Positions 7,533 through 41,846 of a DNA stretch of 64,000 nucleotides are shown piece after piece. Position 1 is the first letter of the stretch. Every line of letters begins with the position of its first letter. Location of the stretch: the NCBI RefSeq assembly GCF_006494815.1, contig NZ_CP041091.1, forward strand, positions 3,176,501 to 3,240,500, written 5' to 3'. The DNA is from Nocardioides sambongensis. GTDB lineage: Bacteria; Actinomycetota; Actinomycetes; Propionibacteriales; Nocardioidaceae. Under the pieces are notes generated by a model. The model ran no database searches. It saw nothing but the letters and a program-made list of their open reading frames with translations, and was not told the origin of the DNA. The translations under genes were made by a program, and so were the position numbers.

Positions 7533-7564
7533 GCAGCGATCACGCTAGGTGGCGTGATCGCTGC
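7533..7564 (-). terminator. 13-bp perfect hairpin between sulfatase and dpp operon
   Basis: GCAGCGATCACGC and its exact complement enclose the 6-base loop TAGGTG. It lies 34 bases past the sulfatase stop and 37 bases before the DppB-like start, both on the minus strand. It could terminate the sulfatase transcript or serve as an operator (core GATCACGC) for the transporter; sequence alone does not decide. Confidence 0.55.
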
Positions 7565-7597
7565 CACACCGGCCCTCGTCCCAGTGACCGGGAGACC

Positions 7598-11892: not shown

Positions 11893-12669
11893 TCAGCCGA
11901 AGAAGGCCTGCCCGCCGTCCAGCGGGATGGTCGCGCCGGTCAGGTATCGCATGTCCGGTCCGACCAGGGCCACCACGGCGCGACCGATGTCGTCCTCGCA
12001 GTCGCCGATCCGCTTCATCGGGATGGAGGCGACGAACTCCTCGGCCTCCTCCGGGTTGGTCTCGGTCCACCACTTCAGCCCCGGCGAGAGGGCGTGCGGG
12101 GCGATCGCGTTGACCCGGATGCCGTCGGGCGCCCACTCCACCGCGGCGGTGCGGGAGAGCGACTTCAGCGCCATCTTCGCCGAGGCGTAGGCGCCGTAGG
12201 TGCGCGCGTCCCAGCGCACCATCGCCGAGGTGACCAGGTTGACGATGGAGGCGTCGCCGGTCGCCTTGAGGTGCGGGTGTGCCGCCTTCATGAACGAGAA
12301 CGCCGCGAACGGGCCGGTGCGATAGCCCTTCTGGAAGGCACGGTCGCTCAGCTCCAGCAGCGGCCCGTGCGCGCCCGCCCAGGCGTTGTTGACCAGGATG
12401 TCGAGGCGACCGAACCGCTCGACGACGGCCTCCACGACGCCGGGGATCGCCTCGGTGTCGGAGACGTCGCAGGCGAAGGCCGCGGCCTCGGCGCCGCGCT
12501 CGCCGATGAGCCGGCAGGTCTCCTCGAGCTTGGACTCGGTCCGCCCGAGCACCGCGATCGCGACGCCCTCGCCGGCCAACGCCAGCGCGATGCCCTGTCC
12601 CACACCCTGACCGGCACCGGTCACCAGCGCGACGCGGCCGGCGAGAGGACGGGACGGGACAGCGTTCAT
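11893..12669 (-). CDS. Short-chain dehydrogenase/reductase
   Basis: 258-residue classical SDR. The cofactor motif is TGAGQGVGQG near residues 17-26, the NNAWAG motif follows near 94, and the catalytic YxxxK reads YGAYASAK. The C-terminus ends in DGGQAFFG. The NAG motif is replaced by NAW, which is unusual but occurs in some SDRs. It starts at ATG with GAGGAG seven bases upstream. It is divergent from the acyl-CoA ligase gene across a region with two TGAGCGGTA elements. Substrate unknown; the position at the edge of the steroid-type cluster suggests a hydroxy/keto intermediate. Confidence 0.85.
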   Translation of the reverse strand: MNAVPSRPLAGRVALVTGAGQGVGQGIALALAGEGVAIAVLGRTESKLEETCRLIGERGAEAAAFACDVSDTEAIPGVVEAVVERFGRLDILVNNAWAGAHGPLLELSDRAFQKGYRTGPFAAFSFMKAAHPHLKATGDASIVNLVTSAMVRWDARTYGAYASAKMALKSLSRTAAVEWAPDGIRVNAIAPHALSPGLKWWTETNPEEAEEFVASIPMKRIGDCEDDIGRAVVALVGPDMRYLTGATIPLDGGQAFFG

Positions 12670-12781: not shown

Positions 12782-12796
12782 TCCCGCTGAGCGGTA
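12782..12796. promoter_or_regulatory. Cluster motif site a (TCCCGCTGAGCGGTA)
   Basis: This site differs from the consensus TYCCGNTCASCGGGA at two positions and contains the perfect inverted repeat CCGCT-G-AGCGG. It lies 66 bases before the ligase start. A second copy of its right half, TGAGCGGTA, is at 12717-12725, nearer the SDR start. Found by eye. Confidence 0.4.
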
Positions 12797-17596: not shown

Positions 17597-18343
17597 TCAG
17601 ATCCGGGAGCCGCCGTCGACCCGCAGCTCGACACCGGTCATGTACGACGCGTCGCGGGAAGCGGCGTACGCGATCGTCCCGGCGATCTGCTCGGGCTCGG
17701 CGGCGCCCATCGGCGAGACGATCCGGCCGTAGTAGCGCATGTCCAGGTCACCGGGGACGCTGCCGGCGGTGAGCGGCGTGGCCACCTGGCCGGGCGAGAC
17801 GGCGAGGACCCGGATGCCGCGGCCGACGACCTCGGCCGCGAGGCTGAGCGTGAAGCCGAGCACCGCGCCCTTGGAGGCCGCGTAGGCGGTCATGTAGGGG
17901 TTGCCCTGGGTGGCCGCGGCGGAGGCGACGTTGACGATCACGCCGCCCTGGTCGGGCAGGTGGCGCAGGGCCTCCCGGCAGAACAGCGCGGTGCCGACCA
18001 GGTTGACCTCGTAGACGGAGCGGAGGTCCTCGACCGAGAGCGTGGCGATCGGGGTGGTGCGGTGGGTGCCGGCCACGTTGACCAGTACGTCGATGCCGCC
18101 GAGCCGGTCGACCGCGGCATCGACGGCGCCGGCCACCGCGGCCTCGTCGGTGATGTCGGCGAGACCGGTGACGATCCGGCCGGGCATCCCCGCCGCGGAA
18201 CGGACCACCTCGTCCAGACCGTCGGCATCGCGGTCGACGCCGACGACGGCAGCTCCCTCACCGGCCAGTCGCAGCGCGGTGGCGCGGCCGATACCGGACG
18301 CGGCACCGGTGAGCAGGACGTTGGTGCCGCTGAACCTGAGCAT
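17597..18343 (-). CDS. Short-chain dehydrogenase/reductase
   Basis: 248-residue classical SDR with TGAASGIGRA at residues 12-21, the NVAG variant of the NNAG motif, catalytic YAASKGAV and the end VDGGSRI. It is first in a minus-strand operon of SDR, 3-alpha-HSD-like SDR and thioesterase. Site b (18387-18401) begins exactly 44 bases upstream of its ATG, and a TACGTT element that could be a -10 box lies between. Probably a dehydrogenase for a hydroxy intermediate of the cluster's pathway. Confidence 0.85.
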   Translation of the reverse strand: MLRFSGTNVLLTGAASGIGRATALRLAGEGAAVVGVDRDADGLDEVVRSAAGMPGRIVTGLADITDEAAVAGAVDAAVDRLGGIDVLVNVAGTHRTTPIATLSVEDLRSVYEVNLVGTALFCREALRHLPDQGGVIVNVASAAATQGNPYMTAYAASKGAVLGFTLSLAAEVVGRGIRVLAVSPGQVATPLTAGSVPGDLDMRYYGRIVSPMGAAEPEQIAGTIAYAASRDASYMTGVELRVDGGSRI

Positions 18344-18386
18344 GGGGCCGAACGTAGGCAGTCGCCGCAGAGCCGGCCCGGAGCGG

Positions 18387-18401
18387 TCCCGATCACCGGG
18401 A
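18387..18401. promoter_or_regulatory. Cluster motif site b (TCCCGATCACCGGGA)
   Basis: Full match to TYCCGNTCASCGGGA. Its inner edge is 44 bases from the SDR start at 18343, with a -10-like TACGTT about 30 bases further in. Confidence 0.55.
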
Positions 18402-18431
18402 GCCGGGCGTCAGCGCCGGCTCAGCGCCCGC

Positions 18432-19037
18432 TCAGCTCCGGCCCAGGTCCGTGAGCAGCAGGCGGCAGGCGAGGCGGGTGTCCGCGTCGGCCTCGACGGC
18501 GCTGATGTGGCCGTTGAGCTCGGAGATGAGCACGCCGTACCAGGTCTGCTCGATCAGTCGCACCAGACGCATGTCGTGGGGGCTGGGCCGCTCGATGTGC
18601 CCCACCTTGAGGATCAGGTCGGCGAAGACCCCGGTGACGGCCATCGACGGGACGTCCCCGGCGACCGCGGCGTTGTTGGAGGTCAGCATGGCGTGGGCCA
18701 GCAGCGGCCGGGACAGCAGCCGGCGCCCGGCCTGGACCAGAACGTCGGCGATCGCCTCCTGGGGCTCGCGGCCGTTGGTCCGCATCGAGACCATCTGGTC
18801 CAACCGGTCGACCTGGCTGTGCAGCAGCGCGGTGAAGAGCACCGTCTTCGACGGGAAGTAGCGGTAGAGCGTGGCGATCGCGACCCCGGCGTCCTTGGCG
18901 ATGTCGAGCATCTGGATCCGCTCCAGGCCGTTGGCGGCCCCGTGCTCGGCGGCGGCCCGCAGGATGCGCTGGTAGCGCTCCTTCTGGCCCGCGGTGGAGG
19001 GGATCGCCGGCAACCGGGTCTCGGCGACTCGCGGCAC
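18432..19037 (-). CDS. TetR-family regulator, KstR-like
   Basis: About 201 residues. The N-terminal helix-turn-helix carries ILRAAAEHGAANGLE and the recognition region VAIATLYRYFPSKTVLF, typical of the KstR branch of TetR regulators (KstR has VAVGTLYRYFPSK). The C-terminal domain keeps the RPLLAHAMLTSN stretch common in that branch. GTG at 19037 is preferred because GAGGA lies six bases before it; GTG at 19043 would abut that site. KstR represses steroid catabolism genes in mycobacteria; that this protein controls the surrounding cluster is an inference. It is divergent from the VOC gene, with site c between. Confidence 0.7.
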   Translation of the reverse strand: MPRVAETRLPAIPSTAGQKERYQRILRAAAEHGAANGLERIQMLDIAKDAGVAIATLYRYFPSKTVLFTALLHSQVDRLDQMVSMRTNGREPQEAIADVLVQAGRRLLSRPLLAHAMLTSNNAAVAGDVPSMAVTGVFADLILKVGHIERPSPHDMRLVRLIEQTWYGVLISELNGHISAVEADADTRLACRLLLTDLGRS

Positions 19038-19127
19038 GTGCACTCCTCGATGGTTCCTCGGTCCGGCCGGCGGGTGCGCGGCCGGTCGCCATTCTCTCCC
19101 CGTTGTGCCGCCGGCGATCCCGACGAG

Positions 19128-19142
19128 GACCGGTGAGTGGGA
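19128..19142. promoter_or_regulatory. Cluster motif site c (complement of TCCCACTCACCGGTC)
   Basis: Three mismatches to TYCCGNTCASCGGGA. It sits between the divergent TetR and VOC genes, 51 bases before the VOC start, with a -10-like TACGGT at 19180-19185. Confidence 0.35.
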
Positions 19143-19192
19143 CGTGGGTCACACCCGACCGAGCGTCGGACCCGGCCCCTACGGTGGTCCGC

Positions 19193-19909
19193 ATGTACCT
19201 GGAGAACGTCGTCGTCGACGCCGTGGACCCCTGGCGGTTGGGCCGGTTCTGGGAGGCGGCCCTGGGGTGCGAGCAGCTGACCGACTCACCGGGCGGCTAC
19301 GAGACGCGCCTGGCCGTCGAGGGCGGTCCGGAGCTCGACCTGTGCTTCCAGCCGGTCGCGGCGCCCTCCACCGAGCAGCCCCGCCTGCACCTGGACGTGC
19401 AGGGCGGCGAGCGGCAGGCCGAGGTCGTCGAGCGGCTGCTCGGTCTCGGCGCACGCCACCTCGACATCGGGCAGCGCGGCGTGCCCTGGGTGGTGCTCGC
19501 CGACCCGGAGGGCAACCCGTTGTGCGTGATGGAGGAGCGCACGTCCTACGCCGCCACCGGTCCGCTCGCGGCCCTCCCGCTCGACTCGGCCGCCCCGGCC
19601 CGGGACGCGGAGTTCTGGGCATGGCTCACCGGCTGGCACGACGTCACCGACGGCGGTCTGCGCTCGCTGCGCCACCCGTCCGGCCGCGGCCCGCTGCTGG
19701 AGCTGTGTCCGGAGCGCGCACCGAAGCCGGCCGCGAAGAACCGCCTGCACCTCGACATCCGGCTCGAGAGCGGGGACCGGGCCGAGGAGGTCGCCGCCGG
19801 CATCGCGGCCCGCGGTGGACGCGAGCTCCACCTGGGCTTCGGCGACCTGCCGTGGCGCCACTACGCCGACCCGTCGGGCAACGAGTTCTGCGTGCTGCCC
19901 GGGCGGTGA
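19193..19909 (+). CDS. VOC-family (glyoxalase-like) two-domain protein
   Basis: 238 residues made of two similar VOC modules, each ending in a matching strand (WVVLADPEGNPLCVM and WRHYADPSGNEFCVL). This is the Glyoxalase_6-type paired architecture. It lacks the metal-ligand pattern and length of HsaC/BphC extradiol dioxygenases, so it is not called as the missing ring-cleavage enzyme. Its stop is five bases from the convergent hsaA-like gene. Function unknown; possibly binding or isomerising a pathway intermediate. Confidence 0.7.
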   Translation: MYLENVVVDAVDPWRLGRFWEAALGCEQLTDSPGGYETRLAVEGGPELDLCFQPVAAPSTEQPRLHLDVQGGERQAEVVERLLGLGARHLDIGQRGVPWVVLADPEGNPLCVMEERTSYAATGPLAALPLDSAAPARDAEFWAWLTGWHDVTDGGLRSLRHPSGRGPLLELCPERAPKPAAKNRLHLDIRLESGDRAEEVAAGIAARGGRELHLGFGDLPWRHYADPSGNEFCVLPGR

Positions 19910-19913
19910 CGGA

Positions 19914-21079
19914 TCAGACCAGGTTGTCCTCGACCGGCAGTCCGAACGCCGAGCGGCCGTAGAGCGCCAGCGCCCGCTCCACGTCGTTGGCGACATGCAC
20001 GCTCCCGGCGTGCGCATCGCGCCAGGCGCGCTCGATCGGGTTGCCGCGCTTGAGTGAGTTGCCGCCGGCGGTCTTGAACAGCGTGTCGATCGCGTCGATG
20101 GAGCGCTCGGTGGCGCGGACCTGGTCACGACGGGCACGCACCCGGTACTCCCACGGGATCTCCGCCCGGCCACCGCGCAGTCGTACAGCGCGGTGATGTT
20201 GCGGTCCATCTGGAGGATCGCGGCGTCGACCTCGGAGGCGGCCCGCGCGACCGCCACCTGGGCGAACTGGTCCTCGGCGAACCGTCCGCCGCCGAGGCTG
20301 AGCCGCACGCGGTCGCGCATCGCGGCCACGTAGTCCTCCAGGCAGCCCGCCACCGCGCCGACCACCGGCGCGGCGATGGTGCTGGCGAAGATCGCGCCGA
20401 ACGGCAGCCGGTAGAGCGGGCCGGGGTTGACCTGCTGGCCGGGCCCGCGCAACCGGGTGTGCTCGTAGTTGCGCAGCACCCTGCTGCGCGGCACGAAGGC
20501 GTCGCTCACCTCGATGTCGTTGCTGCCCGTGCCGCGCAGGCCGACCGTGTCCCACACGTCGTGGACGGTGTAGTCGCTCGCGGGCACCAGCACCGTGATG
20601 AAGTCGGCCGGCTTCCCGTCCGCACCGACCAGGATGGTGCCGAGCAGTGCCCACGTCGCGTGGCCGCACCCGGAGGAGAAGCTCCAGCGCCCGGTCAGGC
20701 GGTAGGCGCCGTCGACCTCGGTCAGCCGGCCCATCGGCGCGTAGGCGGAGGAGACCAGCGTGTCCGGGTCCTCGCCCCACACCTCCGCCTGGGCCTCGTC
20801 GGCGAAGAGTGCGAGCTGCCACGGGTGCACCCCCAGCACGGAGGTCACCCAGCCGGTGGAGCCGCAGGCACCGGAGACCGCCCGCACCACCTCGTAGAAG
20901 TGGACGGGGTGCCCCTCCAGGCCGCCGTACCGCTGCGGCTGGAGCATCCGGAAGACGCCGGCCTCGGCCAGCTCCGCGATGCTCTCCTCCGGTACGTCGC
21001 GCTGCTCCTCGGCCAGGTCGGCCCGCTCCCGGATCCCGGGAAGCAGGTCGCGGACGGCGTGGAGGACCTCGTTCTGCAT
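19914..21079 (-). CDS. hsaA: HsaA-like flavin-dependent monooxygenase (frameshifted)
   Basis: Acyl-CoA-dehydrogenase-fold, FMNH2-dependent phenol hydroxylase. In steroid degradation HsaA hydroxylates 3-HSA to the catechol 3,4-DHSA with flavin reductase HsaB. Family features from memory of the mycobacterial HsaA: LLPGIRERA at the start, LQPQRYGGLE, CGSTGWVTSVLGVH, SSGCGHA, DVWDTVGLRGTGSN, ARRDQVRATERSID, and a GLPVEDNLV end. The frame breaks at the C run 20165-20167; one added base gives the expected AGAEIPWEYR and 388 residues. Divergent from kshA; site d is 44 bases upstream of its ATG. Confidence 0.82.
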
Positions 21080-21122
21080 GGGTCCAGCATCCTCCGCACG
21101 CCGGAGGCGGGGAGGGCCGACC

Positions 21123-21137
21123 TTCCGATCAGTGGGA
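21123..21137. promoter_or_regulatory. Cluster motif site d (TTCCGATCAGTGGGA)
   Basis: One mismatch to TYCCGNTCASCGGGA. Its inner edge is 44 bases from the hsaA start at 21079 and 85 bases from the divergent kshA start at 21222. Confidence 0.5.
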
Positions 21138-21221
21138 TCTCGCCGAGCCAGGCCACCAGCGCCGCAGCAGACTCACCGGACAAGCCCGGAGGCGGGTCCG
21201 ATCCAGGTGAGGGAGATCCTG

Positions 21222-22418
21222 ATGAGCGTTCAGCACGACAGCGAGGTCCGCACGATCGAGGCGGATGCCGCCCCATCGCGGTTCGCCCGCGGATGGCACT
21301 GCCTCGGCCTGGCCCGGGACTTCGCCGACGGCAAGCCGCACCAGGTGATGGCGTTCGGCACCAAGCTGGTGGTCTGGTCCGATTCCAAGGGCGAGCTCAA
21401 CGTCCTCGACGGCTACTGCCGTCACATGGGTGGCGACCTGACCCAGGGCGAGGTCAAGGGCGACAACATCGCCTGCCCCTTCCACGACTGGCGCTGGGGC
21501 GGCGACGGTCGCTGCAAGGAGATCCCCTACGCCCGCCGTGTCCCGCTGCGCGCCCGCACCGCGACCTGGCCGACGATGGTGCAGGACGAGATGCTCTTCG
21601 TCTGGAACGACCCGGAGGGGAAGAAGCCGCCGGAGGACGTGACCATCCCCCGCATCGAGGGCGTGGGCAGCGACAAGTACACCGACTGGCACTGGTACAC
21701 CACCGTGATCGAGGGCTCCCACTGCCGCGAGATCGTGGACAACGTCGTCGACATGGCGCACTTCTTCTACATCCACTACTCGTTCCCGACGTACTTCAAG
21801 AACGTCTTCGAGGGCCACACCGCCACGCAGTTCATGAACGGCGAGGGTCGCGAGGACGTGCGTCCCACCAAGCCCGGCTCCGGACCCGTGGTGATGGGTC
21901 AGACGTCCGTCGCGTCCTACCACGGCCCGTCGTTCATGATCGACGACCTGACCTACCACTACGACGACGGCGACGTGCACACCGTCCTGATCAACTGCCA
22001 CTACCCGATCGACGAGAACTCCTTCGTGCTGCAGTACGGGATCATCGTGGAGAGGGCCGACCACCTCGAGGACCCCGACGCGACCGCCCGCAAGATGGGC
22101 GACTTCACCAAGTTCGGCTTCGAGCAGGACGTGGCGATCTGGAAGAGCAAGGCGAAGATCGACAACCCGCTGCTCTGCGAGGAGGACGGGCCGGTCTACC
22201 AGCTGCGACGCTGGTACGAGCAGTTCTACGTCGACGTCGCCGACGTGACGCCGGAGATGACCGAGCGGTTCGAGTTCGAGATCGACACCACCAAGCCGAA
22301 CGAGGCGTGGAAGCGCGAGGTCGAGCAGAACATGGCGGCGCGGGCGGCGTACCGGCAGCGGATGGCCGAGAAGAAGGCGGCCGGCTCCTCCAGCGACCAG
22401 CAGTCCTCCGGGGTCTGA
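21222..22418 (+). CDS. kshA: 3-ketosteroid 9-alpha-hydroxylase oxygenase subunit
   Basis: 398-residue Rieske non-heme iron oxygenase. KshA, with reductase KshB, hydroxylates C9 of 3-ketosteroids; together with delta-1-dehydrogenation this opens ring B. The Rieske cluster ligands are in CRHMGGDL and CPFHDWRW (Cys-x-His and Cys-x2-His). The catalytic iron region reads NVVDMAHFFYIHYSFPTY, giving the two His ligands. Length is close to known KshA (about 386). The ATG has GGGAGA six bases upstream. It leads an operon with the small cysteine protein (next start two bases after its stop) and an SDR. No KshB gene is in the window. Confidence 0.88.
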   Translation: MSVQHDSEVRTIEADAAPSRFARGWHCLGLARDFADGKPHQVMAFGTKLVVWSDSKGELNVLDGYCRHMGGDLTQGEVKGDNIACPFHDWRWGGDGRCKEIPYARRVPLRARTATWPTMVQDEMLFVWNDPEGKKPPEDVTIPRIEGVGSDKYTDWHWYTTVIEGSHCREIVDNVVDMAHFFYIHYSFPTYFKNVFEGHTATQFMNGEGREDVRPTKPGSGPVVMGQTSVASYHGPSFMIDDLTYHYDDGDVHTVLINCHYPIDENSFVLQYGIIVERADHLEDPDATARKMGDFTKFGFEQDVAIWKSKAKIDNPLLCEEDGPVYQLRRWYEQFYVDVADVTPEMTERFEFEIDTTKPNEAWKREVEQNMAARAAYRQRMAEKKAAGSSSDQQSSGV

Positions 22419-22419
22419 G

Positions 22420-22727
22420 GTGGCCGTGCGCCCGGACGTCCGTCTCGACGACGGGCCGATGACGCCGGTGTCCTGCGGCACCTGCGGCGCCTCCGTCGAG
22501 GCCCGCAAGTCCAGCTGGGACCAGACCAGCATCCAGTGGCACGAGGCGGCGCTCGCCACCTGCGTCGAGCGCCGCGCCGCGAACCCTCGCCCCGGCCCGA
22601 ACGGTGGTGCGTTCGCCGGCTGCGCGGCGCTGAACCAGTCCCTGCGCGAGGCCGCGGTGACCGGCGCGCTGCCGGTCCAGGACCCCGACGAGCTGAAGAC
22701 GAACCCCACAAGGAGCTGCACCGCTGA
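22420..22727 (+). CDS. Small four-cysteine protein of the kshA operon (frameshifted)
   Basis: Not recognised. The GTG start is two bases after the kshA stop. Corrected length is 102 residues. Four cysteines are visible: Cys19 and Cys22 in SCGTCG, Cys48 and Cys68, a CX2C-X25-C-X19-C pattern that could bind zinc or an iron-sulfur cluster. The frame near the end is broken at the C run 22704-22707. One added C gives the tail NPHKELHR and a stop overlapping the next start as TGATG, a far better fit than the uncorrected end at 22752. Translational coupling on both sides suggests a function tied to KshA or the SDR; an electron-transfer or assembly role is speculation. Confidence 0.65.
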
Positions 22728-23533
22728 TGACCGACCTCTCGACGTACCGTGAGAAGTACGGCCCCTGGGCCCTCATCGCCGGCGGCTCGGAGGGCGTGGG
22801 CGCCTCGTTCGCCCACCAGCTCGCCGACGCCGGCTTCAACCTGGTGCTCGTCGCCCGCAAGCCCGGCCCGCTGGAGGAGACCGCCGCAGCGGTGCGCAGC
22901 AGGGGTGTGCAGGTCCGCGCGCTGTCGTTGGACCTGACCGACGCCGCCTCGGTGGAGAAGCTCACCGCCGCGACCGCCGACCTCGAGGTCGGCCTGCTGA
23001 TCTACAACGCCGGCGCCAACTCCTACGGCAAGCGTTTCCTCGACGGCGACCTGGCCGGCTTCCAGGGCGTGATCGACCTCAACGTGACCACCCCGCTCGC
23101 GCTGACCCACCACTACGGCCGGCTGATGCGGGAGCGCGGCACCGGCGGCATCATCCTGGTCGGCTCGCTGGCCGGCTACCTCGGCACGCCCCGGGAGGCG
23201 ATCTACGGCGGCGCCAAGGCGTTCGGCCGGATCTTCGCCGAGGGCCTGTGGCTGGAGGCGAAGGAGGCCGGCATCGACGTGCTCGAGCTGGTCCTCGGCG
23301 TCACCCGTACGCCGGCGATGGCCCGCGCCGGCCTCAACATGGACCTGCCCGGGCTGGTCGTCGGCGAGCCCGACGACATCGCCCGCGAGGGCCTGGCGGC
23401 GATCGCCGACGGGCCGGTGCACGTGATCTCCGGCAACGAGAAGGTGGTCGCGATGCGCGCCACCACCGACCGCGCCAAGCTGGTCGTCGGCACCCACGAG
23501 ATGATGAAGAAGCTCGTCCCCGAGGACCACTGA
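22727..23533 (+). CDS. Short-chain dehydrogenase/reductase
   Basis: 268-residue SDR of the DltE/SDR-like subgroup. It has AGGSEGVGASF near residue 18 (replacing the usual TGxxxGIG), YNAGAN near 86, and catalytic YGGAKAFGR. The ATG overlaps the preceding stop (TGATG), with AAGGAG 13 bases upstream inside the previous gene. Third gene of the kshA operon and convergent with the KstD-like gene. Its substrate is probably an intermediate of the same pathway, but nothing in the sequence names it. Confidence 0.85.
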   Translation: MTDLSTYREKYGPWALIAGGSEGVGASFAHQLADAGFNLVLVARKPGPLEETAAAVRSRGVQVRALSLDLTDAASVEKLTAATADLEVGLLIYNAGANSYGKRFLDGDLAGFQGVIDLNVTTPLALTHHYGRLMRERGTGGIILVGSLAGYLGTPREAIYGGAKAFGRIFAEGLWLEAKEAGIDVLELVLGVTRTPAMARAGLNMDLPGLVVGEPDDIAREGLAAIADGPVHVISGNEKVVAMRATTDRAKLVVGTHEMMKKLVPEDH

Positions 23534-23566
23534 GCAGGTCCTTCCGGCCGAGCGGCGGGGTGGGGC

Positions 23567-25015
23567 TCAGCCCCTGGCGACGGTCCGCCCCGCCCGCCGG
23601 CCGAAGAACGTGCCGTCGCCCAGCGACGTACCGCTGATGTAGCCGTCGCCGTGGATGCCCGAGGCGGCCCGGCCGGCGGCGTAGAGGCCGGCGATCGGCT
23701 CGCCGGCGACCGAGAGGACCTCGCCGTCGAGGCCCGTGTGCAGGCCGCCAAGGGTGAAGCCGGAGAAGCCGGTGCCCACCGGCTGGGCGCTGCCGCCGAA
23801 GCCGTAGCGCGGGTCGACCGCGGCGAACGGTCCCTCCAGCGGCCGCAGCCACCGGGGGTTCTTGTGGAACAGCACGTCCTCGCCACCCTCGGCATGCCGG
23901 TTGTACGTCGACACCGTCTCCTGCAGCGAGCCCGCGGGCAGGCCCAGGTCGACCTCGAGCTCGGCCAGCGTCTCCGCACCGTGCGTCGGGCGCACCCCCC
24001 ACAGGTCGCGGGCGGGCACGTCGTCGAGACCCTGCTCGTCCAGGATCACCCAGCACGGCCCCGGCTGGTGCAGCGCCGCGTGGCTGAACAGCCCGGGGTA
24101 GACGTCCTCGTTGATGAACCGGCGTCCCAGCCCGTTGACCAGCATCCCGCGGCACACCATGGCCGGGAGAGCGGTGTAGGCCGCCTCGACGAAGCCCATC
24201 CGGCGGGTGGCCGCGCCCATCGCGGCGGCCATCCGGATGCCGGAGCCGTCGTCGAGGCCGTCGGAGACCTTGCCGTGGCCGAGCAGCTCGGGGGCGTGGT
24301 CGGCGAGCATCTCCTCGTTGTCGACGAACCCGCCGGTGGTGAGCACCACCCCGCGGCGGGCCCGGTAGGCCAGGTCGGTGCCGTAGCGGCGGGCGGTCAC
24401 GCCGACCACCCGGCCGTCCTCGACGACCAGGGAGACCGCGCGGGTGTCGGTGACGGTGCGCACGCCCGCCTCGGTCGCCGACGCGGTGAGCGCGTCCATC
24501 ACCGTGTGGCCGGCCCAGCTCTCGGTGGCCGGCCGGTGGCCGCGCGGCACCGGCCGGGCGAGCGTGTCGTAGGGCCAGGCGTTCTCACCCAGCCACATCA
24601 GACCGTCCTTGGTGGGCGGCATCCAGCTCGGGGCGTCGTAGAGGGACTCCTCGAAGCGCACCCCCCGCGCCGCGAACCACTCGAAGTGCTCGACGCTGCC
24701 GTCGCAGTAGAGCCGCAGCTTCTGCTCGTCGGCGTGCGGACCGAGCGCCGCGCGCAGGTAGGCGAACATGTTGTCCGCGTCGTCGGTGAAGCCACAGGCG
24801 CGCTGCACCCGGGTGCCGCCACCGAGGTAGAGCTCGCCACCGGACTGCGCCGAGGAGCCGCCGGGCCCGCTGGCCCGCTCCAGCACCAGCACCTCGGCGC
24901 CGGCCGACGCGGCCTCGTAGGCGGCGGCCGCACCGGCGCAGCCGTAGCCGACCACCAGCACGTCCACCTCGGCCTCGTAGGAGGCGACCTCTGCTGCCGG
25001 GACCGGGTTCACCAT
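23567..25015 (-). CDS. FAD-binding dehydrogenase, KstD/fumarate reductase flavoprotein family
   Basis: 482 residues. The N-terminal FAD motif reads VVGYGCAGAAAAYEAA with the acidic end of the fold in LVLERASG, then PGGSSAQSGG. A GDGYISGTSLGDG segment near the C-terminus is typical of the FAD_binding_2 family that includes 3-ketosteroid delta-1-dehydrogenases and fumarate reductases. Assignment to steroid dehydrogenation rests on the family and on the hsaA/kshA neighbours. ATG at 25015 is preferred: GAGAGGG lies nine bases before it, whereas it would abut the ATG at 25024. Second gene after the hsaA-like gene, 41 bases downstream. Confidence 0.75.
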   Translation of the reverse strand: MVNPVPAAEVASYEAEVDVLVVGYGCAGAAAAYEAASAGAEVLVLERASGPGGSSAQSGGELYLGGGTRVQRACGFTDDADNMFAYLRAALGPHADEQKLRLYCDGSVEHFEWFAARGVRFEESLYDAPSWMPPTKDGLMWLGENAWPYDTLARPVPRGHRPATESWAGHTVMDALTASATEAGVRTVTDTRAVSLVVEDGRVVGVTARRYGTDLAYRARRGVVLTTGGFVDNEEMLADHAPELLGHGKVSDGLDDGSGIRMAAAMGAATRRMGFVEAAYTALPAMVCRGMLVNGLGRRFINEDVYPGLFSHAALHQPGPCWVILDEQGLDDVPARDLWGVRPTHGAETLAELEVDLGLPAGSLQETVSTYNRHAEGGEDVLFHKNPRWLRPLEGPFAAVDPRYGFGGSAQPVGTGFSGFTLGGLHTGLDGEVLSVAGEPIAGLYAAGRAASGIHGDGYISGTSLGDGTFFGRRAGRTVARG

Positions 25016-25056
25016 CGTCAGCATCCCTCTCGTCGTGACTCCGGCCGGCGGCCGGG

Positions 25057-26241
25057 TCAGATCATCGCGAGCATCGGGCCCGGCGGCGGGGTCACCTCGA
25101 GCTCGGTGAGCGCCGCGGCGTGGAAGACCGAGCCGGGCACGTGGATCGCGTGGGCCAGGCCCATGTGGCCGTCGCGCCAGAACCGCTGGATCGGGTTGTC
25201 CATCCGCAGCCCGTTGCCACCGGAGCGGGCGACCACCTCGTCCATCGCCCGCGCCGCCCGCCACGCCGCCGCGACCTGGGTACGACGCGAGGCCGCCCGG
25301 TCCGCGAGGGTGACCTTCTCGCCCTTCGCGGCCATGTCGTAGAAGCGCGAGACGTTGTCGAGCATGGCGGTCTTGGAGGCCTTGATCTCCTCGGCCGCGG
25401 CGCTGATCGCGTAGAGGACGTAGGGGTCGTCCTTGATCTTGGTGCCGGTCACCTGGACCCGGGTGCGCTGGTAGGCGAGGTGCGCGGCCAGCGCGCCCTC
25501 GGCGATGCCGATCACCGCGGAGGTGATGCCGAGCGGGAAGATCGTGGTGAACGGGACGCCGTACGTCGGGTTGGTGCGGCCCGAGGCCTCGAGGGCGGAG
25601 CCGTCCATCATCGAGGAGAACGGGACCGCCCGGTACTCCGGGATGAAGGCGTCCTTGACGATGATGTCCTTGCTGCCGGTGCCGCGCAGGCCCACGACGT
25701 CCCAGGAGTCCTCGACGATCTGGTAGTCCGACCGGGGCAGGATCACGTGGTAGTTCTGCGGCGGCATCGCCATCGCGCCCTCGGCGTCGCCCAGCATCGC
25801 GCCCAGGAAGATCCAGTCGCAGTGGTCGGTGCCGGAGGAGAACTGCCAGCGGCCGTTGAAGACGTAGCCGCCGTCGACCGGCCTCAGGATGCCCATCGGC
25901 GCGTACGGCGAGGCGATCCAGGTCTCGTGGTCCTCGGACCAGATCTCGGCCTGCACCTTGGGGTCGCACAGCGCCATCTCCCACGGATGGACACCAACGA
26001 TGCCGGCGACCCAGCCGGTGGAGCCGTCGCACGAGGCGATCCGCATCACGGTCTCGGCGAAGTCGCGCGGGTGCGCCTCGGCGCCGCCGTACTCGGCGGG
26101 CTGCAGCATCTTCATCACGCCGGTCTCGCGGAGGATCCCGGCGGCCTTGTCGGTGAGCCTGCCCAGGCTCTCGTTCTCCGCACCGAGGGAGGCGATCTCC
26201 TCGGCGTGCTGCTCGACGGCGTCGAGGACGGTGCTGGTCAT
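25057..26241 (-). CDS. Second HsaA-like flavin-dependent monooxygenase
   Basis: 394 residues, unbroken. It shares the HsaA layout with the gene at 19914-21079: LQPAEYGGAE, CDGSTGWVAGIVGVH, SSGTDHCDW, DSWDVVGLRGTGSKD and IQRFWRDGH. It is clearly diverged, lacks the ARRDQVRA stretch (SRRTQVAAAW here), and ends differently. A paralogue acting on a different phenolic or polycyclic intermediate is likely. It heads an operon with the KstD-like gene. Upstream are a KstR-type box and, overlapping it, site e, exactly 44 bases from the ATG. Confidence 0.8.
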   Translation of the reverse strand: MTSTVLDAVEQHAEEIASLGAENESLGRLTDKAAGILRETGVMKMLQPAEYGGAEAHPRDFAETVMRIASCDGSTGWVAGIVGVHPWEMALCDPKVQAEIWSEDHETWIASPYAPMGILRPVDGGYVFNGRWQFSSGTDHCDWIFLGAMLGDAEGAMAMPPQNYHVILPRSDYQIVEDSWDVVGLRGTGSKDIIVKDAFIPEYRAVPFSSMMDGSALEASGRTNPTYGVPFTTIFPLGITSAVIGIAEGALAAHLAYQRTRVQVTGTKIKDDPYVLYAISAAAEEIKASKTAMLDNVSRFYDMAAKGEKVTLADRAASRRTQVAAAWRAARAMDEVVARSGGNGLRMDNPIQRFWRDGHMGLAHAIHVPGSVFHAAALTELEVTPPPGPMLAMI

Positions 26242-26274
26242 GACAGCACCGTGTCACCGCCGCCGCGCACCCGG

Positions 26275-26288
26275 TAGAACGTGTTCCC
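26275..26288. promoter_or_regulatory. KstR-type box TAGAACGTGTTCCC
   Basis: Contains GAAC-GT-GTTC and matches the AACnnGTT core and flanks of the mycobacterial KstR operator (TnnAACnnGTTnnA, with C instead of the last A). It is 34 bases upstream of the hsaA-like start and overlaps site e by four bases. Confidence 0.5.
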
Positions 26289-26299
26289 GTTCACCGGGA
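26285..26299. promoter_or_regulatory. Cluster motif site e (TCCCGTTCACCGGGA)
   Basis: Full match to TYCCGNTCASCGGGA. Its inner edge is 44 bases from the hsaA-like start at 26241. Confidence 0.55.
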
Positions 26300-26341
26300 C
26301 CGTGCGCCGGCGTGCGGGCGGTCGGCAGCGAAGGGCTGGGG

Positions 26342-27235
26342 TCAGTCCTGGCGGAGCAGGAAGGCCAGCACCGCGCTCTCCCAGGCGTCCTTCTGCTCGA
26401 TCATCGCCCAGTGGCCGCAGTTGGGGAACACGTGCAGCTCGACGTCGGGGATGGTCCGCATCGGCACCAGGGCCATGTCCATCGGGGAGACCCGGTCGTC
26501 ACGACCCCAGGTGATCAGGGTGCGGGCCCGCACCTTGTGCAGCATCGCCCAGTACGGCGGCGCGTCCGAGGTCGCGGCCGCCTTCTGCATGGCGGCCCAG
26601 GCGGCCTTGCCGTACATCTTGCGGGCGCTGGCCAGGGTGGACGGCTCGGTGGCCTGGTCCCAGCGCTGCTGGATCAGCTCCTCGGTGACCATCGCCCTGT
26701 CGAAGACCATCGACTCCAGCCACTGCACGAGCCGCTCACGGGTCGGCTCCTCGGTGAACTCCTGGAGCAGCTTGATCCCCTCCCCCGGCGCCGGGCTGAA
26801 GATGTTGGTGCCCATCCCGCCGACGGTGACCATCCGGCGGACCCGGTCCGGCTGGGCGGTCGCGAAGCGGGTGGCGACCACCCCGCCCATCGAGTTGCCG
26901 ATCACGTCGACGCCGCCGTCGTCGGGCCCGGCCAGGCCGAGGGCGTCCAGGAAGTCACCCACCGCGGGCATCGCCGCCAGCATCGGGTGCAGGTCGGTGG
27001 GGTCACTGACGCCGAACCCGGGGAACTCCAGGATCAGGCAGCGGAAGTGCGGGGCGAACGCGGCCAGGTTGTCGCCGAAGTTGCGCCACCCGGTGACCCC
27101 GGGGCCGGAGCCGTGCAGCATCAGCAGCGGGGGGCCGTCGCCGGCCTCGTGATAGCGCAGCACGCCCCGCGGGGTCTCGATCTCGCGCAGCGTGGCGTCG
27201 TGGCTCAGGTCGGTCTCGTTCACTGGGGCGCTCAC
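26342..27235 (-). CDS. HsaD/MhpC-type meta-cleavage product hydrolase
   Basis: 297-residue alpha/beta hydrolase. HsaD cleaves the C-C bond of the ring-opened product 4,9-DSHA; relatives act on other meta-cleavage products. Seen: YHEAGDGPPLLMLHGSGPG, nucleophile Ser in GNSMGG, Asp in WGRDDRVSP and His in NCGHW, plus the NIFSPAPGEGIK stretch typical of the HsaD branch. Length matches HsaD (about 291). The start is GTG with AGGG eight bases upstream. Divergent from the hsaB-like gene, with site f 44 bases from this start. The partner dioxygenase HsaC is not in the window. Confidence 0.78.
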   Translation of the reverse strand: MSAPVNETDLSHDATLREIETPRGVLRYHEAGDGPPLLMLHGSGPGVTGWRNFGDNLAAFAPHFRCLILEFPGFGVSDPTDLHPMLAAMPAVGDFLDALGLAGPDDGGVDVIGNSMGGVVATRFATAQPDRVRRMVTVGGMGTNIFSPAPGEGIKLLQEFTEEPTRERLVQWLESMVFDRAMVTEELIQQRWDQATEPSTLASARKMYGKAAWAAMQKAAATSDAPPYWAMLHKVRARTLITWGRDDRVSPMDMALVPMRTIPDVELHVFPNCGHWAMIEQKDAWESAVLAFLLRQD

Positions 27236-27278
27236 GCCGCGACCCTAGGAGTCCGCCCCGATCGGCCCACCGAGCCGT

Positions 27279-27293
27279 CCCGGCTGATGGGAA
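27279..27293. promoter_or_regulatory. Cluster motif site f (complement of TTCCCATCAGCCGGG)
   Basis: Three mismatches to TYCCGNTCASCGGGA. It lies in the divergent hsaD/hsaB gap, 44 bases from the hsaD-like start and 43 bases from the hsaB-like start, so one site could serve both. A -10-like TAGGGT faces hsaD at 27247-27242. Confidence 0.4.
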
Positions 27294-27335
27294 CACTGTG
27301 CCGCGGGGGTGGGGGTGTGGGTGAAGGTGGCCGAC

Positions 27336-27896
27336 ATGAGCGCACTTGCCATGGAGCCGTCCGCCGACGCGTCGACCCAGCCGACGCCGGCCCGGATGCG
27401 GGACGCGATGGGCTCGTTCGCGACCGGTGTCACCGTGGTGACCGGCTTGGACGGCGGCGAGCCCGTCGGGTTCGCCTGTCAGTCCTTCGCGTCGGTCTCG
27501 CTGACGCCGCCGCTGGTGCTCTTCTGCGCCGACCACCGCGGGCGTACCTGGCCGCGGATCCGCACCGCTGGCCGGTTCGCAGTCAACGTGCTCGCCGAGG
27601 ACCAGCAGGAGCTGTGCGGCCGGTTCGGCTCCAGCCGGGGCCGCCGGTTCGAGGACCTCGACTGGGAGCGCTCGGACTGGGACACCCCGTCGCTGCCGGA
27701 GGTGCTGATGCGGGTCCACGCCGAGGTGGTCGACGTGCACGTCGCCGGCGACCACGACGTGGTGATCGGCCGGGTGCTCGGCCTGGAGACGCCGCGCGAG
27801 GGGCGTCCGCTGCTCTTCTACCGTGGCGAGTTCGGCGTGGAGAAGCCGGTCGCGCCGGCGCCGTACCCGTGGGGGTACGGCGACCGCTGGGGCTGA
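27336..27896 (+). CDS. HsaB-like flavin reductase
   Basis: 186-residue flavin reductase-like protein, the size of HsaB. It would supply reduced flavin to HsaA-type hydroxylases. Seen: MRDAMGSFATGVTVVT, the FMN-binding region CQSFASVSLTPPLVLFC, and FAVNVLAEDQQELC, all typical of the family. The ATG has GAAGGTGG seven bases upstream. Likely partner of one or both HsaA-like proteins; which is not known. Confidence 0.8.
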   Translation: MSALAMEPSADASTQPTPARMRDAMGSFATGVTVVTGLDGGEPVGFACQSFASVSLTPPLVLFCADHRGRTWPRIRTAGRFAVNVLAEDQQELCGRFGSSRGRRFEDLDWERSDWDTPSLPEVLMRVHAEVVDVHVAGDHDVVIGRVLGLETPREGRPLLFYRGEFGVEKPVAPAPYPWGYGDRWG

Positions 27897-27898
27897 GG

Positions 27899-28060
27899 TC
27901 AGGCCGCGCTGAGCGCGGCCGAGCCCGGCAGCAGCGTCGGTGCGCAGCCGCAGCTGCCCTCGCAGGGCAGGTAGGTGTGCGACTCGTGACCGCACCGCGG
28001 GCACGGGATGTCGTGCGAGAGGTGGTGATCCGCCCTCTGGGTCTCGATGGTGTCCCACAT
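27899..28060 (-). CDS. 53-residue cysteine-rich protein (zinc-ribbon-like)
   Basis: Function not recognised. Begins MWDTIETQRADHHLSHD and carries CPRCGHE and CEGSCGC, two cysteine clusters that could form a small zinc ribbon. ATG at 28060 has GGGGA just upstream; an in-frame ATG at 28102 is less likely. From memory, similar short proteins occur in other Nocardioidaceae. It lies between the hsaB-like and IclR genes; a role in the cluster is unproven. Confidence 0.6.
   Translation of the reverse strand: MWDTIETQRADHHLSHDIPCPRCGHESHTYLPCEGSCGCAPTLLPGSAALSAA
27902..27920. terminator. 8-bp hairpin between convergent genes
   Basis: GGCCGCGC and its complement around the loop TGA, six bases after the hsaB-like stop and inside the last codons of the convergent small gene. 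Could end transcription of the hsaB-like gene. Confidence 0.35.
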
Positions 28061-28142
28061 GGTCCCCGCCCCCTTCGCCGGTGCGTCGTTCGGTCGATGC
28101 ATCCATGCTGGTCGCGAACGTCGACGCGGGGATCGGGGATCT

Positions 28143-28170
28143 CCCCCGGGCTCAGGGGACCCGGAGGGGG
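28143..28170 (-). terminator. GC hairpin downstream of the IclR gene
   Basis: CCCCCGGG at 28143-28150 pairs with CCCGG-A-GGG at 28160-28168, with one bulged A. It lies 60-85 bases past the IclR stop on the minus strand. Confidence 0.35.
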
Positions 28171-28186
28171 ACCGTGGGTCGGACCC

Positions 28187-28220
28187 GTGCTGGATCAGAT
28201 GCGGTGCTGGATCAGATGCG
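28187..28220. repeat. 17-bp perfect tandem repeat
   Basis: GTGCTGGATCAGATGCG occurs twice without a gap, followed by a partial degenerate copy reaching the IclR stop codon. Confidence 0.7.
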
Positions 28221-28228
28221 GTGGGGGA

Positions 28229-29212
28229 TCAGAACCAGTCGCCGGACTCGCCGGCGGCGACCATCCGGTCCAGCGCCTGCGCCGACCAGCGCTCGTCGGC
28301 GAGCTCGGCCGCGGTGACGGTACGACGACCCTGGCGGGGCGACGGCGAGGTGACCGTGATGCCGCGGGGTGCACGGACCCGCCGCGGCGCCTGGGTGCCC
28401 GGGATCTGCAGGTCGGGGAAGAGGGTGCGGGTGGCCTGACGGGCCGCGTCCAGCACCAGGGGCGCGACGCGCTCGAGCTGGGTGCCGGCGTCGCCGACCA
28501 GCGAGATCGCACCGACCGCGCCCTCGGGGCCACGCACCGCGGCGGCGACGCAGGCGATCTCGGGGAAGCACTCGCCCCGCTCGAAGGCGATCCCGTGCCG
28601 GCCGCGGATCCGGGTCAGCTCCTGGTGCAGGGTGCCCACGTCGCCGATGCTGCGGCTGGTGTTGCGGCCGATCGCGGGCGCGATCTGCTCGTCGACCTCC
28701 TCGGCCGACATCCAGGCGAGCATCGCCTTGCCGAGCGCGGTGCAGTGCGCCGGAGCGCGGCCGCCGACACGGCTGGGCACGACGCCGGCGAACCGGCCGC
28801 CCATCTTGTCCAGGTAGTGGATCTCGGCGCCGTCGAGCACCGCGAGGTGGGCGACCAGGCCGGTCCGGATCAGCAGCTCGTGCAGCGGGCCGGCGGCGGC
28901 CTCGCGCAGCTCGAGGTGGCTGCCGCCGGTGCCGCCCAGACCGAGGGAACGGGTGCCGAGGGAGTAGCCGAACGGCGAGTGGGAGAGCCACTCGAGCCGG
29001 ACCAGCTGGTCGAGGATCCGGTGCGCGGTCGACCGCGGCAGGTGGGTGGCCCGGGCGACCTGCTCCAGGGTCAGCCGCGTGCTCGGGCTGGCGAACGCCT
29101 CGAGGATGAGGGTCATCCGCTCCACCATCGACGGCGGCAGGGTGCGCCCGTCCTTGGCGTCGGTGGCTGCTGCCGTGCTCGCCTGGTCCTCGTCGACCGC
29201 AAGAAGCGACAT
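28229..29212 (-). CDS. IclR-family transcriptional regulator
   Basis: 327 residues. The N-terminal winged helix-turn-helix (VERMTLILEAFASPSTRLTL, then HLPRSTAHRILDQL) is followed by the IclR effector domain (HCTALGKAMLAWM; later FPEIACVAAAVRG). An extra C-terminal tail of roughly 60 residues goes beyond the usual IclR length. It is divergent from the LLM oxidoreductase gene. An AT-rich palindrome at 29230-29253 lies just upstream and could be its own operator. It may also act on the cluster promoters. Confidence 0.85.
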   Translation of the reverse strand: MSLLAVDEDQASTAAATDAKDGRTLPPSMVERMTLILEAFASPSTRLTLEQVARATHLPRSTAHRILDQLVRLEWLSHSPFGYSLGTRSLGLGGTGGSHLELREAAAGPLHELLIRTGLVAHLAVLDGAEIHYLDKMGGRFAGVVPSRVGGRAPAHCTALGKAMLAWMSAEEVDEQIAPAIGRNTSRSIGDVGTLHQELTRIRGRHGIAFERGECFPEIACVAAAVRGPEGAVGAISLVGDAGTQLERVAPLVLDAARQATRTLFPDLQIPGTQAPRRVRAPRGITVTSPSPRQGRRTVTAAELADERWSAQALDRMVAAGESGDWF

Positions 29213-29229
29213 GGTGACTCCCTCACTCG

Positions 29230-29253
29230 AAAACTGAAATCGTTTCTAGTTTT
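29230..29253. promoter_or_regulatory. AT-rich palindromic operator upstream of the IclR gene
   Basis: AAAACT at 29230-29235 and AGTTTT at 29248-29253 are inverted, enclosing GAAA-TCG-TTTC. It lies 18 bases from the IclR start in an otherwise GC-rich region. Probable autoregulatory site or promoter element. Confidence 0.55.
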
Positions 29254-29323
29254 GAAGTTAGCACAGTCACACGAGGTGCGGTCAATGATCCGTGACGTCG
29301 ATCTCACCGGGAGCGGGAGAATC

Positions 29324-29338
29324 TTCCGGCCACCGGGA
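29324..29338. promoter_or_regulatory. Cluster motif site g (TTCCGGCCACCGGGA)
   Basis: One mismatch to TYCCGNTCASCGGGA. It ends exactly 44 bases before the LLM gene start at 29382, with a -10-like TAGGCA at 29369-29374. Confidence 0.5.
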
Positions 29339-29381
29339 GGTCGAGACCCGCTCCCCGGCCGCCTGCGGTAGGCAACGGGGC

Positions 29382-30260
29382 ATGCAGAACGCGCTCCGGA
29401 TCGGCCTCGTCAGCCCCGTCGTCACCCGCCTCCCCGGCGCCTTCAACGCGTGGGAGGCCGACGCCGGGATCGCCGAGCTCGCGCAGGTCGCGGTGGCCGC
29501 TGACCGCCTCGGCTACGACCACCTCACCTGCAGCGAGCACGTCGCCGTGCCGACCGCGGTCGCCGAGCAGCGCGGCGGCACCTACTGGGACCCGCTGGCC
29601 ACCTTCGGCTACCTGGCTGCGCAGACCTCCCGGATCCGCCTGGCCACCCAGGTCCTGGTCCTCGGCTACCACCACCCGCTGGCCATCGCGAAGCGCTACG
29701 GCACCCTCGACGCGGTCAGCGGCGGCCGCCTGGTGCTCGGGGTGGGGGTCGGGTCACTCGAGGAGGAGTTCGACCTGCTCGGCGCCGACTTCGGCGGCCG
29801 CGGTGCGCGCGCGGACGACGCGATGCGAGCCCTGCGCGCCTCCCTCGGCGACCGCTCGCCGAGCTACGCCGGCAGCCACTACGCCTTCGACGGGCTCGTC
29901 GTCGAGCCCCACGCCGTACAGGAGCAGGTGCCGCTGTGGGTCGGCGGCCAGGGCGCGCGGTCGCTGCGTCGCGCCGTCGAGCTCGGCGACGGGTGGGTGC
30001 CCTTCGGCCGGCTCTCCGAGCTGGGCGCGCTGGTCGCCGACGCCGACCTGCCCACCGGCTTCGAGATCGTCCTCGGCCCCGGTCAGGCGCTGGACCCGAT
30101 CGGCGACCGCGCCAAGACCGAGGAACGTCTCGGCCGGGTCGCCGACGCCGGCGCCACGGTGGTCAGCGTGAAGATCGCCGCCGACTCGGTGGGCGCCTAC
30201 GTCGACCAGCTCGAGGCGCTGGCCGAGATCGGAGGTCTCACAGCACCACCCCGGGGTTGA
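29382..30260 (+). CDS. LLM-class (probably F420-dependent) oxidoreductase
   Basis: 292-residue protein with the luciferase-like TIM-barrel pattern: DRLGYDHLTCSEHV, FGYLAAQTSRIRLATQVLVL, HPLAIAKRYGTLDAVSGGRL and GVGVGSLEEEF. The short length and this pattern fit F420-dependent members of actinobacteria; FMN use cannot be excluded. ATG at 29382 follows a G-rich ACGGGG ribosome site. Its last 23 bases overlap the end of the convergent FAD oxidase gene. The upstream site g ties it to the cluster regulon. Confidence 0.82.
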   Translation: MQNALRIGLVSPVVTRLPGAFNAWEADAGIAELAQVAVAADRLGYDHLTCSEHVAVPTAVAEQRGGTYWDPLATFGYLAAQTSRIRLATQVLVLGYHHPLAIAKRYGTLDAVSGGRLVLGVGVGSLEEEFDLLGADFGGRGARADDAMRALRASLGDRSPSYAGSHYAFDGLVVEPHAVQEQVPLWVGGQGARSLRRAVELGDGWVPFGRLSELGALVADADLPTGFEIVLGPGQALDPIGDRAKTEERLGRVADAGATVVSVKIAADSVGAYVDQLEALAEIGGLTAPPRG

Positions 30261-40641: not shown

Positions 40642-40728
40642 CGGCCCTCCTCGACCTCCGGACCCGTCGGCACCCGACGGGGCACGCCGCAGCGTAGCCA
40701 CCGCGCCGGCCGCGAACCCGGTGTCCTC

Positions 40729-41724: not shown

Positions 41725-41846
41725 CACCCCACCGTAGGTCCGGGTGCGGGGGCGCACCACGTGTCCGACCGACACGGACCCCAAGGATCGGGACAGGTCC
41801 GTCCCGCGCTGTTCCTCCGGCGCCGCTGCCGGAGCAGGTTGCCTCC

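Follow-up and report, generated by a model that had tools for sequence, protein, structure and literature searches.

In Nocardioides sambongensis, a 15-bp palindrome, TCCCG-nTSAn-CGGGA, precedes bile-acid catabolic genes (casG-type, kshA and hsa-type) and is probably the operator of the IclR-family regulator IclR1 and of its paralogue IclR2, which would use it for activation at promoters that have a -10 box only. Judging from comparative sequence evidence, we give this reading a probability of about 0.8. The stretch analysed, hereafter the window, comprises 64,000 nucleotides (positions 3176501-3240500 of contig NZ_CP041091.1, which is the whole genome of 4,434,294 bases in one contig). Its CasG-type synthetase, KshA and HsaA-type genes point to bile-acid degradation as the substrate route of the region. 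Genes were called with a simple script rather than taken from a curated annotation, and some start codons may be misplaced. Labels beginning with L and G denote, respectively, loci and genomes compared in the analysis.

The motif was new to an earlier note on this DNA, yet it is already in print. Named Lcin1 (consensus TCCCGGT[C/G]ACCGGGA), it was predicted in 2020 by phylogenetic footprinting in cluster E of Nocardioides simplex VKM Ac-2033D, a lithocholate-induced cluster that carries bile-acid genes and in which a KstR motif was also reported (PMC7593942). The binder of Lcin1 was left open in that work: KR76_18060, a KstR3 orthologue, and KR76_18605 were presumed, the former being favoured because lithocholate induced it, and further research was requested (PMC7593942). 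KstR3 of Mycolicibacterium neoaurum has been shown to be a repressor (PMC10398937). The same motif stands in the window before kshA, SDR, casG-type and hsa-type genes, and the sites at 18387, 26285 and 7579 each differ from the Lcin1 consensus by one base, the site at 12782 by three. The sections of the Lcin1 paper considered here give no -10 spacing and its main text does not use the word IclR; in the open-access literature searched, Lcin1 is otherwise matched only by an unrelated paper on a sensor, and among the matches listed for IclR and steroids no title or opening of an abstract assigns the motif to an IclR protein. The motif itself is therefore already known as a prediction, to which the present analysis adds a candidate binder, the geometry of the promoters and the range of genera that carry it.

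The earlier note had placed the motif at seven promoters of the window. All seven coordinates are correct on recount, as are the mismatch counts (2, 0, 3, 1, 0, 3 and 1 in order of position, each on the claimed strand). Weak matches prove little, because at up to three mismatches the window already holds 111 of them against 46.9 +/- 7.3 in shuffles; at up to two mismatches the whole genome has 686 matches, against 153 for the reversed pattern. Raw mismatch counting was rejected as proof, since three-mismatch matches are common and exact ones are mostly intragenic in genomes without a close IclR1 relative. As a control we used 18 stretches of 20 kb from the same genome (360 kb, of which 71 kb intergenic; 7,500 bases are N). 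Intergenic palindrome sites with at most one mismatch number four in the window and six at 760-800 kb, and none in the 360 kb of control. A matrix scan, of the kind that the earlier note had suggested, gives the same picture: a position weight matrix trained only on sites from fetched genome-contig loci (an earlier matrix had included window sites), and supplemented with a term for a -10 box at 29-31 nt, scores the sites at 18387, 7579, 26285, 12782 and 21123 above the control maximum of 13.9 (Table 1). Four of the original seven (12782, 18387, 21123 and 26285) are thereby above control, while 19128 and 27279 score below 10 and 29324 is weak; the strong site at 7579-7593 was absent from the original list. 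With these corrections the observation of the motif is confirmed. The pattern T-C-C-C-G-n-T-S-A-n-C-G-G-G-A describes 184 places, themselves selected at up to one mismatch. One could still read the motif as a by-product of a GC-rich genome and chance palindromes, in keeping with the many weak matches and with the intragenic position of most exact matches where no close IclR1 relative exists. This is very improbable given the empty control, a -10 peak that played no part in site choice, and the linkage to IclR loci and the hsaD control described below.

A second steroid locus of this genome, at about 760-800 kb, holds genes for KshA (70% identical to that of the window), an HsaD-type hydrolase (67%), a sulfatase, an ABC transporter and dehydrogenases. 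Its sites lie at 763027, 773472, 781492, 785904, 793951 and 797407 (zero or one mismatch) and at 769725 (two mismatches), and all of them are followed at 29 nt by a -10-like hexamer on one strand or both. This locus encodes IclR2, 46% identical to IclR1 and with a nearly identical helix (LPRSTVHRILDQL); no match to the TetR protein of the window was found in it (L017, L018). Two further IclR proteins of this genome, IclR3 (helix LPKTTVFRLLTQL) and IclR4 (helix LPKPTAHRVCADL), have no intergenic site with at most one mismatch in the surrounding 15-20 kb. Genome-wide, six of the seven exact sites are intergenic, and six of the seven have a -10-like hexamer.

As candidate binders the earlier note had named the first IclR gene product and a KstR-like TetR protein. 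IclR loci were collected by a genome-contig scan with an alignment of 12 IclR sequences, and the 79 studied are the best 79 of 555, from many actinobacterial genera. At least one intergenic site with up to one mismatch occurs in 69 of the 79 (172 sites in total), the reversed pattern in none. Because these loci were themselves chosen by IclR, we ran a control with hsaD: of 20 canonical HsaD loci (41-45% identical), all from genomes lacking an IclR1 match at E <= 1e-30, none has such a site. Likewise, the canonical KshA regions (980-1040 kb here, and L217 of G081) hold no intergenic site with up to one mismatch. Among the 118 genomes compared, exact sites average 3.87 per genome in the 30 with a close IclR1 relative (E <= 4.4e-50; control pattern 0.27) versus 1.44 in the 88 others (control 0.44). 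Twenty exact matches were sampled from 15 of those 88, among the matches listed: 18 are inside called genes, three of these 18 having nAnnnT at 29-31 nt, and neither of the two intergenic ones has a -10 hexamer. Where a locus has both sites and an IclR, the recognition helix is in most cases LPRST[A/T/V/S]HRIL[D/E]QL, as in IclR2 and in L102, whose IclR is only about 39-44% identical but has the same helix, with sites present. L113 and L114 have no intergenic site with up to one mismatch in their 15-20 kb.

Could the KstR-like TetR protein (18432-19043), which we equate by assumption with KR76_18060 of N. simplex, bind the motif instead? It sits in the cluster, it co-occurs with IclR1 in the genus, a site-like sequence precedes its gene, and KR76_18060 is lithocholate-induced and favoured by the authors of the Lcin1 prediction (PMC7593942). 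However, a TetR relative is present in only 20 of the 79 IclR loci, with sites in 15 of these 20 and also in 54 of the 59 loci without it, and the second steroid locus has sites and no TetR match. In G081, IclR relatives and sites are present and a TetR at E <= 1e-20 is absent. G034, which has a TetR relative (52%) and lacks an IclR1 match at E <= 1e-30, shows no intergenic site in the 20 kb surrounding the TetR gene; this is a weak test since that gene stands there alone, without steroid genes. TetR repressors, moreover, need no fixed distance to a -10 box, whereas the sites described here keep one. On this comparative evidence the first IclR is favoured and the TetR protein is kept as an improbable rival. 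Co-occurrence within the genus was of little use as a separator: relatives of IclR1 and of the TetR protein occur together in 33 of the 118 genomes, close relatives co-occur, and only G034, G081 and in part G051 and G099 separate the two.

The promoter geometry was measured on intergenic sites with at most one mismatch and a called start 15-130 nt downstream, taken from the window, the second locus and 119 fetched loci. These are 284 oriented sites, 237 after removal of 47 near-copies, and the -10 box played no part in their choice. The hexamer TAnnnT lies at offsets of 29, 30 and 31 nt in 24, 39 and 18 of the 237 (81 in total), and in at most three at any other offset from 5 to 75; nAnnnT does so in 52, 74 and 37, against at most 14 elsewhere, and 157 of the 237 distinct sites have one. 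The fetched genome-contig loci alone (128 oriented sites) show the same peak (nAnnnT 19, 47 and 23 at 29-31; elsewhere mean 2.57, maximum 11). With the sites aligned on the -10 box, a -35 box is not discernible: information in the -35 zone never exceeds 0.09 bits per position, and the best TTGACA match averages 2.11 versus 2.03 in shuffled sequence. Called start codons peak 41-44 nt from the site, with 43 of the 237 at 40-46 nt and many others 60-80 nt away or more distant. An ATG or GTG follows the -10 box after 6-7 nt in 54 of the 157, a leaderless geometry. In the window, the distance of 44 first reported holds for the start codons at 18343, 21079, 26241, 27235 and 29382 (as a base-to-base difference, with 43 nt between); the value of 43 for the hsaB-like gene is right provided that this gene starts with the ATG at 27336. 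Read in gene direction, these five promoters consist of the site, 30-31 nt, a hexamer (TACGTT, GATGCT, CACGGT, TAGGGT and TAGGCA, respectively), 6-7 nt and the start codon. On the assumption that transcription begins at the start codon, the site would cover about -57 to -43.

The earlier note had left the choice between an activator and a promoter-overlapping operator. An activator is favoured because the sites keep a fixed phase to the -10 box, the -35 box is absent and the site lies upstream of the -35 position, while the site of a repressor would be free to move. The IclR family includes repressors, activators and dual regulators (PMC8222616), and IclR1 might accordingly act as a repressor or dual regulator that blocks the polymerase until its ligand arrives; the same three features speak against this, and we consider it unlikely. 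In the preferred reading, activation by IclR1, an IclR dimer would bind at about -57 to -43 (centre about -50), provided that transcription starts at or near the start codon, and would stand in for the absent -35 box, recruiting or activating RNA polymerase at the strictly spaced -10 box. Genes for bile-acid and steroid ring degradation would in this way be transcribed into mRNAs with a short leader or none. As inducing ligand, a bile acid, the corresponding CoA ester or a ring metabolite is probable.

IclR1 passes both Pfam models of the family (HTH_IclR, 45.0 bits, cut-off 22; IclR_C, 100.7 bits, cut-off 24), and its best NCBIfam model, TIGR02431, reaches 102.5 bits, under the cut-off of 284.75. 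Known IclR sites fall into the groups GTNCG-N5-6-CGNAC and TGRAACA-N1-2-TGTTYCA, with no single family consensus thought to exist, and most centre 20-80 nt before the gene start (PMC8222616). Regulators of the PcaR/PcaU/PobR type have the same domain make-up as IclR1, and the first of these groups shares a CG-N5-CG core with the window motif; the latter differs in its outer TC in place of GT, in its steroid targets, and in the single fixed site at promoters without a visible -35 box. SRTF2 of Pimelobacter simplex is a steroid-induced IclR encoded beside a ketosteroid dehydrogenase gene, and an iclR gene lies within a steroid cluster of Rhodococcus ruber (PMC7062782; PMC6498646). SRTF2 is perhaps a relative of IclR1 or IclR2; SRTF1 of the same organism is a TetR protein that binds a 22-bp palindrome, and the sections of PMC7062782 considered here give no site for SRTF2.

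Several observations weigh against IclR1 and its relatives as the readers of this motif. TCCCG-N5-CGGGA fits neither printed IclR consensus, and only the CG-N5-CG core matches. Part of the loci were fetched because they hold an IclR and others because they hold exact sites, so that linkage in them arises by selection; the hsaD controls, the sampled exact sites and the paralogues answer this objection in part. Ten of the 79 IclR loci, including L170, L174 and L176 with the standard helix, have no intergenic site with up to one mismatch. A simple helix rule is broken by L103, L107, L111 and L112: L107 (helix LPRSTAHRIMNQL) has no site in its 20 kb, the site of L112 lies beside an IclR with helix LPRSTAFRILGQL, and L103 has two sites beside a distant IclR. 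L095, L096, L099, L100 and L104, fetched for their exact sites, show no IclR match in the sequence retrieved, and control of these sites would require an IclR encoded outside it in the same genome. In N. sambongensis itself, the exact site L020:9571 is without a -10 box, and a site scoring 20.7 (L215:10373) falls in the canonical steroid locus.

The KstR and KstR2 regulons likewise control ring-degradation genes, and boxes of their type are found at the canonical locus and, diverged, before iclR1. KstR and KstR2 are, in contrast, TetR repressors with a different palindrome, and the region 980-1040 kb has no intergenic Lcin1-type site with up to two mismatches (L215:10373 being intragenic). A KstR-type box has the form AGAAC-NN-GTTCT. 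The better boxes of this type in the genome are at the canonical locus (980-1020 kb), at 986 kb (two mismatches), 1001 kb (one), and 1004 and 1009 kb (three each), that at 1009 kb being at the start of the canonical kshA; the motif is unlike the KstR boxes in sequence, as had been claimed, and these boxes lie at another locus. With up to four mismatches, intergenic KstR boxes of the window lie at 29233 (before iclR1), 26273 (weak, four mismatches) and 36809, and none was found at the other listed target promoters; the 360-kb control holds 10. The AT-rich palindrome at 29233-29250 (ACTGAAATCGTTTCTAGT) stands between the Lcin1-type site and iclR1, and a related element precedes iclR1 relatives in 37 of 110 loci by pattern match. 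Because of this palindrome, we propose an upper tier, in line with the report of a KstR motif from cluster E: its position suggests that a TetR repressor may control iclR1 through it, and that IclR1 would then activate the catabolic genes. The TetR protein of the window, assigned by Pfam, falls short of the NCBIfam KstR model (88.3 bits; cut-off 280). The weak box at 26273-26290 (GGTAGAACGTGTTCCCGT) overlaps the 26285 site of the HsaA-type gene, and dual control there is possible.

The sites, regulators and predicted targets of the window are collected in Table 1.

Table 1. Candidate operators, regulators and predicted target genes in the window (scores are those of the matrix with -10 term unless stated otherwise)
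Feature	Position	Strand	Remarks
Palindromic site TCCCGGTCACTGGGA	7579-7593	-	-10 TAGCGT at 7542-7547, 31 nt on; score 28.4
Site between SDR gene 11893-12669 (-) and CasG-type gene (+)	12782-12796	.	scores 19.0, 22.6
CasG-type steroid-24-oyl-CoA synthetase	12862-14520	+	846.9 bits, cut-off 750
SDR dehydrogenase, predicted target	17597-18343	-	
Perfect site TCCCGGTGATCGGGA	18387-18401	-	-10 TACGTT at 18351-18356; SDR start codon 18343, leaderless geometry; score 32.8
TetR regulator resembling KstR, rival binder and possible target	18432-19043	-	Pfam
Weak site TCCCACTCACCGGTC before TetR gene (start 19043)	19128-19142	-	score 11.1 in the earlier matrix, inside the control range
Site between hsaA open reading frame (-, 21079) and kshA (+, called start 21207)	21123-21137	.	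scores 18.7, 19.0
KshA-type 3-ketosteroid 9-alpha-hydroxylase oxygenase, predicted target	21207-22418	+	KshA_C 301 bits
HsaA-type monooxygenase, predicted target	25057-26241	-	HsaA model 378.6 bits, under cut-off 450
Perfect site TCCCGGTGAACGGGA	26285-26299	-	-10 CACGGT at 26248-26253; HsaA-type start codon 26241; score 27.8
HsaD-type hydrolase, predicted target	26342-27235	-	HsaD model 267.2 bits, under cut-off 400
Degenerate site TCCCATCAGCCGGGA	27278-27292	.	best register, one base off the claimed 27279-27293
IclR1, proposed binder and activator	28229-29212	-	recognition helix LPRSTAHRILDQL at about 29003-29041
Palindrome ACTGAAATCGTTTCTAGT, resembling a KstR box, immediately upstream of iclR1	29233-29250	.	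2 mismatches to ACTAGAANNNNTTCTAGT (ACTAGAA-N4-TTCTAGT)
Site TTCCGGCCACCGGGA	29324-29338	+	TAGGCA 30 nt on at 29369-29374; LLM start codon 29382; score 10.3
F420-type LLM oxidoreductase, predicted target	29382-30260	+	
Extra candidate site TCCCGGCGACTGAGA	40727-40741	-	TACGCT 30 nt on; score 17.4 against control maximum 13.9; evidence from the window alone

The site at 7579-7593 precedes oligopeptide/nickel-type ABC transporter genes (called start 7463). Two sites lie between divergent genes and have -10-like hexamers on both sides: GAGACT (+, 31 nt) and CAAGGT (-, 30 nt) at 12782-12796, and GATGCT (-, 31 nt) and CAGACT (+, 30 nt) at 21123-21137. The degenerate site at 27278-27292 separates the HsaD-type gene (-, 27235), with TAGGGT exactly 30 nt on, from an HsaB-type flavin reductase gene (+, ATG 27336); its support is positional, the sequence being not above control. 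The upstream region with the site at 29324-29338 is common to the LLM gene and iclR1. The extra candidate at 40727-40741 overlaps the very end of the called gene 40729-41760 (-) and precedes the called start, 40641, of the gene 38977-40641 (-).

Conservation in related promoters, which the earlier note had suggested examining, is seen upstream of kshA, LLM and TetR genes. Among the relatives listed, kshA of L069-L072 has a related site 42-43 nt before the called start, and the LLM genes of L055, L058 and L067 have sites with zero or one mismatch, that of L055 having one and lying 42 nt before the start. The sequence TCCCACTCACCGGTC at 19128 is similar to TCCCACTCACCGGTA, which stands 75-98 nt upstream of the TetR gene in L072, L073 and L074, again among the relatives listed. 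Assignment of the 19128 site to the VOC gene was rejected: TACGGT lies there 37 nt away, and in relatives the corresponding sequence is upstream of the TetR gene.

Further sequences of this genome resemble the motif. The exact site L021:9822-9836 (contig position 3090822), outside both steroid loci, has GAAGGT 31 nt on and precedes an SDR gene (called start 9717); it overlaps the end of another called gene by nine bases and is a possible extra member of the regulon. L215:10373-10387 (contig position 1010373), the site-like sequence TTCCGATGGTCGGGA with two mismatches and TAGCAT 30 nt on, falls within a short called gene (10176-10478) that follows the canonical kshA, and a link there between the KstR and IclR regulons is possible. 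The gaps upstream of the genes for IclR3 and IclR4 contain the palindrome-like sequences TTCCGCTGGTCGGAA (L075:10450-10464, score 13.5) and TATCGGTGAGTGGAA (L076:9433-9447, 13.4), both near the control maximum, which are perhaps related operators of related IclR proteins.

Finally, two genes appear to be interrupted. The hsaA open reading frame of the window (19286-21079, -) matches HsaA only over about its first 302 residues (profile 1-302 of 383), a separate short frame (19914-20141, -) is called just after the match, and the gene looks frame-shifted near 20150, by mutation or sequencing error. In G081, the KshA relative (C11:15020-16091) is in two separate pieces, perhaps also by a frame-shift.

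Our results propose a regulator for a published orphan motif and bear on the control of bile-acid and side-route steroid genes outside KstR and KstR2. There is roughly an even chance that the arrangement is general, with a single IclR-type activator and its paralogues running a steroid and bile-acid ring-degradation regulon across many actinobacterial genera (Nocardioides, Amycolatopsis, Saccharopolyspora, Streptomyces, Actinomadura, Geodermatophilus and others), a site fixed at 29-31 nt from the -10 box replacing the -35 box, and a KstR-like repressor standing above it via iclR1. Since motif and IclR go together in many genera, the pairing could help to find uncharacterised steroid genes, and could also help to build steroid-responsive promoters. 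The fixed spacing and absent -35 box would make these sequences a clean natural collection of actinobacterial promoters that depend on an activator and are in part leaderless.

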